Source: Actinomyces faecalis (GTDB lineage: Bacteria; Actinomycetota; Actinomycetes; Actinomycetales; Actinomycetaceae). From it: 64,000 nt of DNA. Each line of letters begins with the position of its first letter. Position 1 is the first letter of the stretch. The stretch lies in NCBI RefSeq assembly GCF_013184985.2, contig NZ_CP063418.1, forward strand, positions 2,604,001-2,668,000, in the 5' to 3' direction. Positions 56,557-63,184 of this stretch are shown piece by piece. The translations under genes and the position numbers were made by a program. The notes beneath the pieces are model-generated. The model saw nothing but the letters and a program-made list of their open reading frames with translations. It searched no databases and was not told where the DNA came from.

Positions 56557-59500
56557 ATGGACACGATCCGCACGACGCAGCGCGCCGACGCTGCCACTGC
56601 CTGCGCCAACCAGGACGCCGCCTTCAACTCCGCTATCGCGCTGCGACTGGACCTGCTGGGTCTTCCTGCTCCTGCTGGTGCTGGCGACCCGGTCACTGAC
56701 CGCCTCATGTCCCCCATCCTCGCCCGCCAGCGAGAGATGAGCCGGCGCCTGTCCGGCCGCCTGTGCGCCGCCGACCGCCGCGTCCAGGCCTTCCTCGACC
56801 TCTACCTTGAGGACGCCCCGCTCCACCCGCACCTGCCGGCTGACACCTTCGTCCTTGACAAGCCCGGCCTGGCGCGTGCGCTCTCACTGCCCCTGGACTC
56901 CACCAGCTTCACCTCTCCCTACGTCGAGAGCTACCGCACCCTGCAGGGTGTGCTGCACAACCCCCGCAACGACCGCCGCACCACCGCCGGCGTCTTCCAC
57001 GTGGCCGAGGGCGGTCTGCCCGTCCCGGACGACAAGAAGGCCGTCCCCCGTGACGTCTTCGCCCGGATCCTGGCGGCCGCCGTCGACGCTCCGCAGGACC
57101 TGCTCACTCTCCCCTGGTCCTCGACCCAGGAGGAGCCTGCCCGCTGCTTCGTCTCGCTGCTGCTGCGACCCGTCGTCGTCCCTGAGGTCACGGGCTTCTC
57201 AGCCGAGCGCCGCATGGAGATCCGCTTCATCGCTCCTGGCGGCCTGGTCTCGAACCTCGACTTCGTCGAGGGCATCTTCGGCAACGCCGGTGACCCCTTC
57301 CTCCCCGAGAACGACGCCTCGCTGGCACCGGAGGGATGGACCGGGCACACCGGCTGCGTCATCCTCGCCCCCCACCTGACGACGCTGACCAAGAAGGAGC
57401 TCGGCCTGCCGTCCTGGGACGAGGCCACCGAGCGCCAGCGTCGTGACGGCATGTGCTGGAAGGACGCTGACGAGCAGTACAACGACGGCAAGCCCTTCAA
57501 GCTGGTCGCCCGCGACGAGCGCGGCGTCATCGTCACGGTCATCGCGGACAACTACTTCGGCTACTGCAAGAAGGAGGTCAAGACCCAGATCGGGTACTCG
57601 GTCAACCTCTTCGGCTGCGTGGAGGAGGAGCACGCTGGTGGCGCGATCGCCTTCCCCCGCTACGACCTGGGCCGCGAGTTCCGCGACGTCCACACCCCCG
57701 CCTCCTGCACGCTCGCCCACGTGCTTGCAGTCAACCCTGGCCGCTTTGAGCTCCAGGCCGAGGGCCACGCACTGGACCTGACCGACGACTCGGTCATCCT
57801 CGTGCCAGGCGGCGCCTTCTACTCCATGCTCACCCAGACCATCACCTGGAACGCCGACGGCGAGGAGCGGTCGATCCCGATGCGTGCGGGCAAGACCTAC
57901 ATCACGCCGTCGGGCTACCAGGTCCACTGCAAGGCCGCCGTCGGCAGTCCCAAGCAGTGGCACATGATCGGTACCGCACCGTGGCACACCCAGCTGCACA
58001 AGCCCGCCACCGTCTCCGGAGGCGGCAAGTCCGAGATCTCCAAGTCCATCCTGGACGCCTTCGTCTTCGGCGAGGCCTACGTGGGCGACCTGGAGGCGGA
58101 CCTGGACGCCGTGCAGCGGATCTTCGACGGCGACTACACCCACCGCTTCGTGGACAAGGCCAACGAGTCCGCTCACCACCGCCACATCCTGTCCGAGCGC
58201 CGCTCGCTGGGCAGCGTCATCAAGCTGCTGACCCCCTCGACGATGTACACCGAGGAGTACAACGCCTTCCTGGAGTCGATCCCGGCACACATCAAGGAGC
58301 TCATCTTCACCGTCAAGCGTTACTACCGCCCGGAGTGGGGCGAGGAGTGGCGCTCGCACTTCTCGGTGAGCATCATGAACGGCCGCCCGGGTAACGCGGT
58401 ACGTATGGACGGCGACACCGTCAAGATCAACATGCTGCGCGTGGGCTTCGAGGAGGACGGCTCCTGGCGCCTGTTCTCCCTGCGCCCGGACTTCGCCGCT
58501 GCGGCCAAGGTCCAGACCGAGGACGACATCACGGCCTCTACGGTGGCACCGGCCGGCGCTGACGAGCCCGCCTTCACCCAGCACCTGTCACGCAAGTACG
58601 TCACCAACGCCGAGTCGCTGCTCTTCCAGCGGCCCGACGACGCCATTGTGCGCGGCTACGACAAGCAGACCGAGCTCGACATGTCCGGCACCGGCCTGTT
58701 CCTGTCCAACTACGCGCCGCTGACTCCTGCCGACGCCCGGGCGATGGTGGACGACGCCCCGGGGCTCTCACAGTTCACCGAGCCGATGCAGGACCTGGTG
58801 CGCCGCGCCGCGGCCGTCGAGGAGTCCGACGACCCCAGGAAGCAGACCTACTGGGTCTCCACCGCCAATCCCCGGATCGTCGACGGCACCCCGACGAAGA
58901 ACCCGCGCTACCTCCAGGTCCGCCCTGACATCGCCCGCCCGCAGGAGGCCCACCTGGCCGAGCTGGCAACCCACCTGTACTCTGACATCCCGCTGGACGA
59001 GCCGATTCGCCACAGCGTGGACATCGTGGCGGCCGGACGCCGCAACAACCCTCCGGAGGAGGGCGTCCCCGCACTGTGCGCCTACAACCCGCTGCACTTC
59101 ATGGAGCTGCCTGAGCTGTTCATGGAGTTCATCTCCTCGATGACGGGCAAGTCGCCCTCGACCACAGGAGCCGGCAGCGAGGGGGCCCTGACCAAGTCGC
59201 CGTTCAACGCCCTGCCCCCGGTCTACGACCTCAACGCGGCCCTGCTGTCCTACGCCCTGAGCGGCTACGACGGCTGGCTGTCCTCAGCGGGCTACATCGG
59301 ACCGAGGGTGAAGGTCGCCCACGACATCTCCATGCTCGTCCCCGAGGTCTTCTCCCGTATGGAGCCTGAGGAGCGCGACGCCCACCACCTCCTGGAGGCC
59401 GGGTACCTGGAGAAGCTGGAGGACTACGAGCTCGACGGCCGCACGGTACAGGCCTCGCGGCTCGGGTATCGCATGAACAAGGCCTTCGCCTCAAACTTCT

Positions 59501-60036
59501 TCGGCCGGATCTTCCTCCACCCCGACGTCGTCTTCACCGAGGCGATGCTCAAGCCCGAGCTACAGGACCCAGAGGTCTTCGCTGACTCCGTGGACGTCAT
59601 CGTCACCACCCACCAGGTGGTGGCCAGGCACTACGTCGACGACGGCTCGATCTCCCAGGCTGTTCCTCCCATCCGGGCGCTGCTGGAGATCATGTACTCC
59701 GGCACCTCCTCCGAGGGCTGGACGCTGGCGAGCCCGGAGCTGCGCGCGCTGTTCGAGCGGGAGAACATCCTGGCCTCGCAGTGGTACGCCGAGCGTCTGG
59801 ACGCCAAGGTGGAGCGTGACCGCAAGCAGGCCGAGGCCTCGATCCGTGCGCTGACGCGCTTCATCGAGACCGAGGGCAACCAGGGCGTGTCCGACCGCCT
59901 GGACATCAACACCCGCCTGGAGGCCGCACGCGCGTGGCTGGAGGAGGTCACCTCACCGGCCTACCGTGCGGGCCTCGTGGGCACACTCGGCCTCCAGCCC
60001 GAGCTCGCCAAGGGCGAGCCGGTCGACGGCAAGTAG
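56557..60036 (+). CDS. PPi-dependent phosphoenolpyruvate carboxykinase candidate
   Basis: 1159-residue protein. The size and general pattern match the large PPi-type PEPCK known from Propionibacterium, Actinomyces and Entamoeba, which turn PEP, CO2 and phosphate into oxaloacetate and PPi (or the reverse). A modified P-loop-like motif, GGGKSEISKS at 488-497, takes the place of the GTGKTT loop of ATP-type PEPCK; downstream are YYRPEWGEEWRSHFSVSIMN and RMDGDTVKINMLRVGFEED. Helical N- and C-terminal parts (residues 1-130 and 990-1159) are extra to classical PEPCK. No membrane segments. Assignment is by length, the lineage association and motif recall; it was not searched. Confidence 0.6.
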   Translation: MDTIRTTQRADAATACANQDAAFNSAIALRLDLLGLPAPAGAGDPVTDRLMSPILARQREMSRRLSGRLCAADRRVQAFLDLYLEDAPLHPHLPADTFVLDKPGLARALSLPLDSTSFTSPYVESYRTLQGVLHNPRNDRRTTAGVFHVAEGGLPVPDDKKAVPRDVFARILAAAVDAPQDLLTLPWSSTQEEPARCFVSLLLRPVVVPEVTGFSAERRMEIRFIAPGGLVSNLDFVEGIFGNAGDPFLPENDASLAPEGWTGHTGCVILAPHLTTLTKKELGLPSWDEATERQRRDGMCWKDADEQYNDGKPFKLVARDERGVIVTVIADNYFGYCKKEVKTQIGYSVNLFGCVEEEHAGGAIAFPRYDLGREFRDVHTPASCTLAHVLAVNPGRFELQAEGHALDLTDDSVILVPGGAFYSMLTQTITWNADGEERSIPMRAGKTYITPSGYQVHCKAAVGSPKQWHMIGTAPWHTQLHKPATVSGGGKSEISKSILDAFVFGEAYVGDLEADLDAVQRIFDGDYTHRFVDKANESAHHRHILSERRSLGSVIKLLTPSTMYTEEYNAFLESIPAHIKELIFTVKRYYRPEWGEEWRSHFSVSIMNGRPGNAVRMDGDTVKINMLRVGFEEDGSWRLFSLRPDFAAAAKVQTEDDITASTVAPAGADEPAFTQHLSRKYVTNAESLLFQRPDDAIVRGYDKQTELDMSGTGLFLSNYAPLTPADARAMVDDAPGLSQFTEPMQDLVRRAAAVEESDDPRKQTYWVSTANPRIVDGTPTKNPRYLQVRPDIARPQEAHLAELATHLYSDIPLDEPIRHSVDIVAAGRRNNPPEEGVPALCAYNPLHFMELPELFMEFISSMTGKSPSTTGAGSEGALTKSPFNALPPVYDLNAALLSYALSGYDGWLSSAGYIGPRVKVAHDISMLVPEVFSRMEPEERDAHHLLEAGYLEKLEDYELDGRTVQASRLGYRMNKAFASNFFGRIFLHPDVVFTEAMLKPELQDPEVFADSVDVIVTTHQVVARHYVDDGSISQAVPPIRALLEIMYSGTSSEGWTLASPELRALFERENILASQWYAERLDAKVERDRKQAEASIRALTRFIETEGNQGVSDRLDINTRLEAARAWLEEVTSPAYRAGLVGTLGLQPELAKGEPVDGK

Positions 60037-60101: not shown

Positions 60102-60154
60102 TTGGTGATGGGGGTGTGCCTCCCAAGAACTGGGATGCACACCCCCATCACCAA
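60102..60154. terminator. Hairpin after the PEPCK-like gene
   Basis: TTGGTGATGGGGGTGTGC (60102-60119) pairs perfectly with its complement at 60137-60154; an inner TCCCA/TGGGA stem is also present. Confidence 0.8.
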
Positions 60155-60259
60155 GCCCTGGCCCCATCAGCGAGAGCACAGTCCATTCGGGCCGTTCCAC
60201 GACTCGCACGGCACCGGTCCCATGAGTAGGGTCGCCCGGAAGATGCGGTAGCGCACCGT

Positions 60260-63184
60260 ATGCTTCACATCGTGACCCCTGCAACAACGACCCCCCCCCC
60301 AGCGGCTGAGCACAGGCTTCGTCTTCACGACCAGCGCTTAGCTGCGAGGGCCTTCTCGCAGCGCTGGAGTGGTCACGGGTACGAGAAGGGCGAGACCCAG
60401 GCGTTCTGGATCGACCTGCTCGGCAGCGTCGTCGGGATCGAGGGAGCTGCCACCGCGGCGATCTTCGAGCAGAAGACCTCTGCCGGCGGGTTTATTGACG
60501 TCCTCATTCCTGAGGCCCGCACGCTCGTGGAGCAAAAGGCCTCCCACATCGACCTCGACAAGCCCGAGCTTCGGCAAGGCACCATGGTCACGCCCTATCA
60601 GCAGGCCAAGCGTTACGCAGACAGCCTGCCCAATCCGCAACGCCCTGACTTCATCGTCGTCTGCAACTTCGAGTGCTTCCGCATCCATGACCTGCGTCGC
60701 GAGGACCCAGAGCACAGCTACATCTCCTTCACCCTGGCGGAGCTGGACGAGCAGTACCACCTCCTCGACTTTCTCATTGATCCGTCGCGCTCCCGGTCAG
60801 AACGCGAGCGCCAGGTCTCGATCCAGGCCGGCGAGGTCATCGGGCGGCTGCGCGACGCGCTCCATGAGCAGTACCGCGCTGCCGGGGATGACCACTGGCG
60901 GGACCTCAACGTCCTGTGCGTGCGTCTGGTCTTCTGCCTGTACGCAGAGGACGCGGGCCTGTTTCCCAAGGACGCCTTCGGCACCTACCTGCGCAGCTTC
61001 GGCCCAGCCCAGATGAGGCAGGCGCTGCTGGACCTGTTCTCCGTCCTCGACACCCCGCACGAGGCACGCAGCGCCTACCTGTCCTCCGACCTGTCTCATT
61101 TCCCGTACGTCAACGGCGGGCTCTTTGCGGACCCCATCGAGATCCCTCAGCTCACGCAGGAGATCTGCAACCTGCTGGTCCATGAGGTCTCCACCGGCGT
61201 GGACTGGTCTGGGATCTCTCCGACCGTCTTCGGCGGCGTCTTCGAGTCCACGCTCAACCCGGAGACCCGACGTGCGGGCGGGATGCACTACACGAGCCCG
61301 CAGAACATCCACCGCGTCATCGATCCACTGTTTCTCGACGCACTGACCACGGAGCTTGAAGACATCCTGGCGGATACCACCGTCACCGAGCGCACGCGTA
61401 AGAACCGCCTACGCCGCTACCAGGACAAGCTGGCGTCACTGACCTTCCTGGACCCGGCTGCCGGCAGCGGAAACTTCCTCACCGAGACCTTCATCTGCCT
61501 ACGGCGCCTGGAGAACAAGGTGCTCTCCGTCCTCCAGGGTCCGCAGACCGCGCTGGAGTTTGAGGGCGTGGGGGAGTCCGCGATCAAGGTCCAGCTCGCT
61601 CAGTTCCACGGGATCGAGATCAACGACTTCGCTGCCTCGGTCGCACGCACCGCGCTGTGGATCGCCGAGCTCCAGGCCAACGCTGAGACGGCAGAGATCA
61701 TCCAGCGCGAAGTTGAGGACCTGCCCCTGCGCGACGCCGCCAGGATCGTTGAGGGCAACGCCCTCGACATGAACTGGAACGACGTCCTTCCGGCCGATCG
61801 CTGCTCCTACGTCATGGGCAATCCACCGTTTATCGGCTATTCAAATCTCACGCCAGAGCAGAACGCCGATCGCGCCCGGCTCTTTGGCAAGGTCAAGACG
61901 GTGGACTACGTGGCCTGCTGGTACGTCAAGGCGGCTCAGTACATGCGTGGGACGGCAATCCATACCGCCTTCGTCTCCACGAGCTCGATCTGTCAGGGTC
62001 AGCAGGTCACGCCGATCTGGAAGCCGCTGTTTGACGACGGCGTCGACATCACCTTCGCGCACCGCAGCTTTGTCTGGGGCAACGAGGCCTCCGACCAGGC
62101 ACATGTGCACGTCGTCATCGTGGGCTTCAGCTACGACGCCTCCGGTATGCGGCGTCTCTTTGAGTACGACGGCGAGGCTGCCTTCGTGCGCGAGGTGTCG
62201 CATATTAACGCTTACCTTGTGGACGCCCCGGATGCCTTCATCGAGCGGCGGAGCCAGCCTCTAGGTGATGTGCCAGCGATGCAGGCAGGCGGAAAGCCTA
62301 CTGAGGGCGGGAACCTTCTCATGTCGTCCGCAGAACGCAGTGAGTTGCTGGACCTTGAGCCTCATGCTGCGCAGTGGGTTCGGCGCTTCTCCATGGGCGC
62401 CGAGTTCATTAAAGGACAGGACCGTTACTGCCTCTGGTTGGTGGATTGTCCACCGCAGGAGATCGCGAAGATGCCGCTGGTCCGTGAGCGCGTCCTGGCC
62501 GTCAAGACGATGCGCGAGGCGTCAGCCAAGGCCGCCACCCGCAAGAAGGCGGAGACACCGTGGCTCTTTGACGAGATCCGCGATCCTGGCACGACCTATA
62601 TCGCCATCCCGGCCGTCTCATCGGAGCGCCGTCGGTACATCCCGATGGGGTTCGTACACAACGGCATGATCCCTGGCAACAAGCTCTACTTCATCCCCAC
62701 GGACCGTCTCGACGTCTTCGGGATCCTCATGTCCCAGGTCCACAACGCCTGGATGCGAGCCGTGGCCGGGCGTCTCAAGTCCGACTACAACTACGCCAAC
62801 ACCATCGTCTACAACACACTGGTCTGGCCAACGACCACCGATACTCAGCGCACCGAGATCGAACGTTGCGCCCAGGCCGTGCTCGATGCTCGGGCGCAGT
62901 ATGAAGGAGCGAGCCTGGCAGACCTGTACGACCCGGACAACAGCTTCCTCTACCCGGCGCTCACCACCGCACACTGCGCGCTCGACTACGCCGTCGAGCA
63001 GGCCTACGGCCTGAGCTTCCCCGCGCAGACCAGCAGCGAAGAGAAAGAGCGTGCCATCGTCGCCCACCTCTTCACGCTCTATGCCGAGACCACCACCGCT
63101 CCTACGGCCTCAACGCTGCGACGAGAACAGCCTGTGGACCACTCGTCGTCTTCTCCGTCATCGTGTCCACTGCCCGCAGCGTGA
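60260..63184 (+). CDS. MmeI-like (type IIL) combined restriction endonuclease and DNA methyltransferase
   Basis: 974 residues. PD-(D/E)xK nuclease: FIDVLIPEARTLVEQK with D80, E91 and K93. Gamma-class amino-methyltransferase: motif I LDPAAGSGNF near residue 397, motif IV NPPFIGY at 521-527; between them the helical spacer typical of MmeI. The region from about 640 (VSHINAYLVDAPD through YTYIAIP to NKLYFIPTDRL) is the specificity domain, with a helical C-terminal end. In MmeI family enzymes one protein cuts and methylates one strand of the recognition site. Codons 11-14 contain ten consecutive C (60291-60300). Start ATG 60260 or, more likely, GTG 60272 (TATGCT seven bases before it). Stands alone. 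Confidence 0.85.
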   Translation: MLHIVTPATTTPPPAAEHRLRLHDQRLAARAFSQRWSGHGYEKGETQAFWIDLLGSVVGIEGAATAAIFEQKTSAGGFIDVLIPEARTLVEQKASHIDLDKPELRQGTMVTPYQQAKRYADSLPNPQRPDFIVVCNFECFRIHDLRREDPEHSYISFTLAELDEQYHLLDFLIDPSRSRSERERQVSIQAGEVIGRLRDALHEQYRAAGDDHWRDLNVLCVRLVFCLYAEDAGLFPKDAFGTYLRSFGPAQMRQALLDLFSVLDTPHEARSAYLSSDLSHFPYVNGGLFADPIEIPQLTQEICNLLVHEVSTGVDWSGISPTVFGGVFESTLNPETRRAGGMHYTSPQNIHRVIDPLFLDALTTELEDILADTTVTERTRKNRLRRYQDKLASLTFLDPAAGSGNFLTETFICLRRLENKVLSVLQGPQTALEFEGVGESAIKVQLAQFHGIEINDFAASVARTALWIAELQANAETAEIIQREVEDLPLRDAARIVEGNALDMNWNDVLPADRCSYVMGNPPFIGYSNLTPEQNADRARLFGKVKTVDYVACWYVKAAQYMRGTAIHTAFVSTSSICQGQQVTPIWKPLFDDGVDITFAHRSFVWGNEASDQAHVHVVIVGFSYDASGMRRLFEYDGEAAFVREVSHINAYLVDAPDAFIERRSQPLGDVPAMQAGGKPTEGGNLLMSSAERSELLDLEPHAAQWVRRFSMGAEFIKGQDRYCLWLVDCPPQEIAKMPLVRERVLAVKTMREASAKAATRKKAETPWLFDEIRDPGTTYIAIPAVSSERRRYIPMGFVHNGMIPGNKLYFIPTDRLDVFGILMSQVHNAWMRAVAGRLKSDYNYANTIVYNTLVWPTTTDTQRTEIERCAQAVLDARAQYEGASLADLYDPDNSFLYPALTTAHCALDYAVEQAYGLSFPAQTSSEEKERAIVAHLFTLYAETTTAPTASTLRREQPVDHSSSSPSSCPLPAA
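60291..60300 (+). repeat. C10 homopolymer tract inside the 5' end of the MmeI-like gene
   Basis: Ten consecutive cytosines at codons 11-14 (T-P-P-P). With ten bases the frame is open. A tract one base shorter stops at a TAG about 17 codons later; one base longer stops at TGA within three codons. Typical site for slipped-strand switching. Confidence 0.8.

Follow-up and report, generated by a model that had tools for sequence, protein, structure and literature searches.

Helicobacter, Campylobacter and Neisseria supply the best-known examples of phase-variable restriction enzymes. Single-chain enzymes of this kind have already been described, among them Helicobacter pylori JHP1272 and Campylobacter jejuni Cj0031, for which an excerpt of PMC8713573 (citing Anjum 2016) reports partial phage resistance. 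Here we describe a gene that very probably joins them. It lies in a 64,000-nucleotide stretch of the Actinomyces faecalis genome (contig NZ_CP063418.1, positions 2,604,001 to 2,668,000; hereafter the window), encodes a restriction-modification enzyme of the MmeI family, and carries a run of ten C near its 5' end. We are highly confident that no other explanation of this C10 tract comes close to slipped-strand ON/OFF switching. Less expected are the repeated homopolymer switches that we propose for two unrelated phage-defence systems of NucS-bearing actinobacteria. The logic familiar from the genera named above would then also operate in high-GC (guanine plus cytosine) Actinobacteria, on the well-studied MmeI scaffold, apparently having arisen several independent times, and beside a DISARM system with the same type of switch.

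Judged by its sequence, the gene product is certainly an MmeI-family (type IIL/IIG) restriction-modification enzyme, which bears out the sequence-only reading that had called the gene MmeI-like. All five MmeI Pfam models (5/5) match above their curated cut-offs, in one chain. The PADLOC type IIG model PDLC03598 scores 1092.6 bits over residues 21-946 of the protein, and the solved MmeI chain (PDB 5hr4) aligns with residues 25-946 at E 1.1e-179. The sequences DPAAGSGNF and NPPF, which we take to be adenine-methyltransferase motifs I and IV, are present both in the protein and in its alignment to MmeI. The protein also has the residues of a PD-(D/E)XK nuclease: D80, E91 and K93 align with D70, E80 and K82, the nuclease residues of MmeI according to an excerpt of PMC4833311.

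The ten C occupy positions 60291-60300 of the window, that is, nucleotides 32-41 of a plus-strand open reading frame (ORF; 60260-63184) of 974 codons plus stop that has no internal stop. Counted from ATG 60260, they fall in codons 11-14. The coordinates and the intact frame had been described correctly from the letters alone, and the accompanying claim that a one-base insertion or deletion (indel) leads to an early stop holds in substance, as the frame closes after 16 residues when one base is added and after 26 when one is removed. The only in-frame starts ahead of the body of the gene are ATG 60260 (codon 1) and GTG 60272 (codon 5). We checked whether the frame might instead begin downstream of the tract and found no in-frame ATG, GTG or TTG before GTG codon 90, which lies within the nuclease domain. 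Because there is no start between codons 5 and 90, a full-length enzyme requires the tract to be in frame. The C10 is thus an intragenic homopolymer of at least 8 that full-length translation must cross, as in a contingency gene.

Of the two upstream starts, GTG 60272 is the likely one, placing the tract at codons 7-10. The block CCGTATGCTTC-CATCGTGACCC-TGCAACAA directly 5' of the tract is invariant but for two positions in three Actinomyces species, with more divergence further upstream, and TATGCT together with GTG 60272 may be read as a leaderless promoter-start unit.

The length of the tract alone carries no argument. Within the window there is one C/G run of length 7, none of length 8 or 9, and one of length 10, which is the tract itself and the sole run of at least 8; a codon shuffle of the gene produced a C/G run of at least 10 in 62 of 20,000 trials. 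Across the 2.70-Mb genome, we counted 35 C/G tracts of at least 9, compared to approximately 99 expected from a first-order Markov (dinucleotide) model of the window. What sets the C10 above chance is that it lies inside a coding frame and is kept, with changed length, in relatives.

A named genome collection yielded 105 confirmed relatives, 80 of which were kept, and a genus search covered 49 genomes. The two closest relatives carry the tract at other lengths: C9 in an Actinomyces metagenome-assembled genome (MAG; L009) and C8 in A. urogenitalis DSM 15434 (L010). Checked for invariance, the tract is therefore not fixed at ten C but has C10, C9 and C8 in three Actinomyces species, and the change in length shifts the frame. 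From the conserved start, the frames of L009 and L010 hit an early stop, and 936 and 938 codons after the tract are open. The ratio of nonsynonymous to synonymous substitution rates (dN/dS) was 0.111 between the window gene and L009, 0.150 between the window gene and L010, and 0.130 between L009 and L010. When unconstrained substitution was simulated at the observed divergence, the two bodies acquired means of 10.1 and 12.9 stops and 0 of 300 runs were stop-free; stop-free simulations rose to 4% and 2.7% at a quarter of that divergence and to 33% and 27% at a tenth. Given the low dN/dS and these simulations, the L009 and L010 bodies were under selection until recently, or are so still. A selected body (dN/dS of 0.11-0.15 over 933-936 codons) thus stands behind an out-of-frame tract, with a caveat for L010 arising from a TTG codon considered below. 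Matches at E 1e-100 or better came from 4 of the 49 genomes of the genus search, and three of these have the tract.

Similar tracts occur in other actinobacterial genes of the family. Five of the 80 named relatives, all Actinomycetota by title, have a C/G run of at least 8 no more than 2,750 nt away from where the match begins (L009, L010, L050, L078 and L085). Gardnerella swidsinskii (L050) has an in-frame G10 in a gene of 38% GC, where a run of 10 arose in 1 of 20,000 codon shuffles; the C10 of Bifidobacterium scaligerum (L078) and the G9 of an Aeriscardovia MAG (L085) are out of frame. A family-wide search found matches in 44 of 213 genomes; of 27 loci examined, from a set capped at 30, 4 have a tract inside the gene, all in a single genus (g34). 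Three of these tracts are in frame (G9 in G204, G9 in G206 and G10 in G208) and one, a G8 in G205, is out of frame. The G206 and G205 genes, a G9/G8 pair, are identical over 25 nt on each side of the tract, differ there by one G, and are approximately 91% identical outside the recognition domain. Tracts in MmeI-family genes occupy no fewer than three distinct sites, so several separate origins of the switch are probable. A fifth g34 gene (G207, L175) has no C/G run of at least 8, and roughly 8 kb of other sequence interrupts it. Among viral contigs, no relative was found of either of the two proteins queried.

The clearest other long tract within a coding frame of the genome is an in-frame G10 in drmD. 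The genes drmD, drmMI, drmA, drmB and drmC are adjacent there, each with a PADLOC match, and we take the operon to be a class 1 DISARM system. Codon shuffling of drmD gave a run of 10 in 139 of 20,000 trials. In a genus survey of 49 genomes, drmD G tracts of at least 9 were found in six, at three different sites, and they form three pairs, each with one in-frame and one broken gene (G000 G10 and G037 G10; G015 G10 and G026 G12; G023 G10 and G024 G9). Both sides of the broken drmD genes are under purifying selection relative to their partners (dN/dS of 0.12-0.29). Across the 10 loci with all five genes, every G/C run of at least 8 (6/6) falls in drmD; the other four genes, which cover roughly three quarters of the operon, have none. 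The partial DISARM locus L187 has no such run. One genome, G037, is out of phase in both its MmeI gene (from the conserved start) and its drmD. The picture is not entirely simple, as drmD and drmMI are broken without a long tract in one of the 10 loci (L186, from G038), and drmD is unbroken without a run of at least 8 in three others (L179, L180 and L181), although L181 has a G7 at the third drmD tract site. No report of phase-variable DISARM was found among the literature matches listed, and the excerpts of PMC12003011 and PMC12926258 show no switching DISARM. In 3 of the 10 DISARM loci, nucS lies directly 3' of drmC (G000, G013 and G037; loci L126:665-1363, L180 and L182); elsewhere the retrieved sequence stopped shortly past drmC or contained no nucS.

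NucS is present in the A. faecalis genome and in 4/4 relatives tested. MutS_V was not found in the genome by a search that was positive in 11 of 14 control genomes. Because NucS occurs without a detectable MutS, indels would be left largely uncorrected. According to an excerpt of PMC11551767, NucS of M. smegmatis leaves indels of 1-2 bp unrepaired, and an excerpt of PMC11287997 describes one tested homopolymer in Gardnerella, also an actinobacterium, that was 9 in one colony and 10 in its sibling.

We therefore propose the following mechanism. A dedicated promoter immediately 5' of the gene would drive its transcription, probably into a leaderless message that begins with GTG 60272. Slippage of the polymerase on the C10, which we infer to take place in this strain, would add or remove a C, and in a NucS-bearing cell without detected MutS the change would largely escape correction. 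One length class in three would be in frame and hence ON, with a presumably active enzyme that both restricts and modifies, and the others would end within about 30 codons and be OFF. Because both activities share one chain, in which a PD-(D/E)XK nuclease and an adenine methyltransferase would be served by a single target recognition domain, cutting and marking would switch together. OFF cells would then lose methylation fully, along with any phage protection, and gene regulation might also be affected. Within one clone, restricting cells would then coexist with permissive ones, and their methylomes would differ. More broadly, we think it likely that Actinomyces holds a defence "phasome", in which independent homopolymer switches in the MmeI-family enzyme and in drmD, which opens the class 1 DISARM operon, give one clone several immune states. 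These switches would have arisen repeatedly (three drmD sites, several MmeI-family sites) and would be kept alive by NucS-type repair.

The suggestion from the sequence-only reading that the tract looks phase-variable is very probably right, as it is supported by the three lengths in three species, the selected bodies, the recurrence elsewhere and the failure to detect MutS. Several points weigh against it, some of them general and others tied to a particular alternative. Variation in length is known from comparison between species, and switching within a population is inferred from it. In 75 of the 80 named relatives, the 2,750 nt around the match start hold no C/G run of at least 8, and the fourth strong genus match (G034, 38% identity) also has no tract. 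On these counts, and with a tract in 4 of 27 loci of the family-wide search, we rejected the switch as a property of the whole MmeI family.

One alternative is that switching affects restriction only. A restart at GTG codon 90 would yield a nuclease-dead chain that keeps the methylase and recognition domains, so that OFF might spare modification; the methylome would stay and only cutting would switch. That codon comes first among the in-frame starts past the tract, beyond D80 of the nuclease, and P0003, a database protein, starts at the residue corresponding to it, yet the start of P0003 may merely reflect the gene caller or a cut contig. We consider this version of events unlikely. We likewise doubt that errors of sequencing or assembly, or recent pseudogene formation, account for the out-of-frame relatives and make them uninformative about switching. 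The L009 sequence comes from a MAG and that of L010 from a draft genome, and in such assemblies the lengths of error-prone homopolymers can be wrong; the L186 DISARM locus, with two genes broken in the absence of a long tract, demonstrates that plain decay occurs. However, both MmeI bodies are under purifying selection, the pattern of in-frame and out-of-frame tracts recurs in other genera and in three drmD pairs, and an error would still presuppose a long tract at the same place.

It is also improbable, in our view, that the gene is constitutive and the C10 in it a neutral run of essentially stable length, the lengths in relatives being a product of ordinary divergence for which alternative start codons make up. 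An in-frame TTG adjoins the tract in L010, six codons ahead of the body, and the L010 gene may be expressed from it, which weakens the OFF call; the database protein P0002 (944 aa, L010 type) begins at the residue equivalent to this TTG. L009 also has in-frame starts upstream, the nearest ATG lying 5' of the -10-like hexamer at a distance of 38 codons from the body, and C/G runs of at least 9 are not in excess genome-wide. Yet across three species the tract changes next to a start block that hardly varies, the mid-gene tracts elsewhere in the family allow no start-codon escape for a full-length chain, and one pair of genes that match over 25 nt on either flank have tracts that differ in length by one G and also in frame. 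Finally, as long homopolymers can cause RNA polymerase slippage, transcriptional slippage or ribosomal frameshifting at the C10 might set the frame in each cell, giving graded expression with no heritable switch and accounting for intact bodies behind out-of-frame tracts, but this requires no change in DNA length, whereas the relatives differ in length, and we find it very improbable.

Features of the MmeI-family locus (window coordinates) and of the DISARM operon (genome coordinates)
Feature	Position	Strand	Basis
MmeI-family single-chain restriction-modification gene, 974 codons from ATG 60260	60260..63184	+	profile and sequence matches
Intergenic inverted repeat, probable terminator of upstream gene	60104..60152	+	paired changes in both arms by eye, three-species alignment
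-10-like hexamer TATGCT, 7 nt before GTG 60272; putative promoter	60259..60264	+	invariant in three species
Preferred start codon GTG (970-aa product); probably leaderless	60272..60274	+	database entry P0001 starts there; GTG and flanks invariant in three species
C10 homopolymer, proposed ON/OFF switch	60291..60300	+	C9 and C8 at same place in L009 and L010
MmeI_N endonuclease domain (residues 29-204)	60344..60871	+	Pfam PF20464, E 1.8e-36
Nuclease triad D80 ... E91-Q-K93, aligned with MmeI D70/E80/K82	60497..60538	+	alignment to MmeI
GTG codon 90, first in-frame start after tract	60527..60529	+	product from there has 885 residues, without D80
MmeI_hel spacer domain	60902..61126	+	PF20465, E 2.3e-20
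MmeI methyltransferase domain (DPAAGSGNF and NPPF motifs)	61391..62161	+	PF20473, E 3.8e-86
Target recognition domain	62225..62833	+	PF20466, E 3.1e-70
MmeI_C domain	62837..63094	+	PF20467, E 1.3e-16
Complete DISARM operon with G10 in drmD	genome C1:1971442-1985629 (L126:1443-15630)	minus	PADLOC matches for five adjacent genes

The specificity of the enzyme was predicted by reading its recognition residues by hand from the 5hr4 alignment, using the rules given in an excerpt of PMC4833311. At recognition position 1, K757 and E772 suggest C; at position 2, K679, the conserved equivalent of K645, suggests C; position 3 is left open by A785/N807; at position 4, K808/N844 suggests C (the published pair is K/S); and at position 6, K840/D842 suggests G. 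This gives a predicted motif of approximately CC?CAG, methylated at the A. By eye, a portion of the recognition domain seems to have been replaced among the close relatives P0001, P0002, P0003 and P0070, and in g34 a BLAST comparison of G206 with G205 and G208 indicates that a recognition-domain segment has been replaced. Specificity may thus also change by recognition-domain exchange. Directly upstream of the gene, on the plus strand, lies a 1159-aa protein (56557-60036) without a match in Pfam, PADLOC or NCBIfam; its C-terminal end also adjoins the MmeI gene in L009 and L010.

To class the 35 long C/G tracts of the genome we used ORFs, composition and, for 9 chosen frames, a Pfam scan; codon usage scored over 120-nt flanks had too little power for this purpose. 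We rejected the idea that all 35 are switches, since for most we found no supported frame through the tract, and an integrase at a C10 (genome 1870685) was set aside because by eye it looks like a multiply shifted remnant. In 34 of the 35 tracts of at least 9, the C run is on the minus strand before approximately 1.3 Mb and on the plus strand after it, as if tied to replication direction; this bias far exceeds the GC skew (0.06 and -0.03 in the fetched pieces). Among individual tracts, an acyltransferase-3 family gene (L121:2240-3268, minus) has an in-frame G9 at codon 228 of its longest reading and is a possible phase-variable surface-modification gene, and the frame of a Rib-domain surface protein (L096:3141-6101, plus) has a G11 at about codon 8 of its longest reading, whose start is putative. 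In L111, two promoter-spacer-like copies of CTTGACAT-C10-GCCATATC (genome 1484732 and 1486024) precede two paralogous secreted-looking proteins, the N-termini of which resemble Tat signals by eye.

If the proposed switching is correct, phage susceptibility, DNA uptake and methylomes of Actinomyces would be mixed within one clone, and single reference genomes would misreport which defences are active. These loci also offer a testable case for the idea that bacteria with NucS and without MutS favour homopolymer switches.

Compared with known systems, the window protein resembles MmeI itself (PDB 5hr4) in architecture, sharing all five domains, the nuclease triad, the methyltransferase motifs and one target recognition domain over the aligned residues. 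Unlike MmeI, it has an N-terminal leader with the C10 before the nuclease domain, as well as other predicted specificity residues. With the phase-variable type IIG enzyme Cj0031 it shares single-chain restriction-modification switched by a homopolymer; Cj0031, however, is from Campylobacter and has a poly-G tract. H. pylori JHP1272 / HP1353-HP1354 is type IIG, possibly type IIL, and is switched ON and OFF at its first homopolymer, a C repeat, according to an excerpt of PMC3936762; its second tract switches specificity, whereas the window gene has no second long C/G tract. Pgl of Streptomyces coelicolor is likewise an actinobacterial phage defence, with phase variation attributed to a homopolymer in pglX in an excerpt of PMC4365076. 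It differs from the window gene in being a multi-gene system with a tract of 8 G, and that pglX tract is the nearest precedent we found for a phase-variable DISARM.

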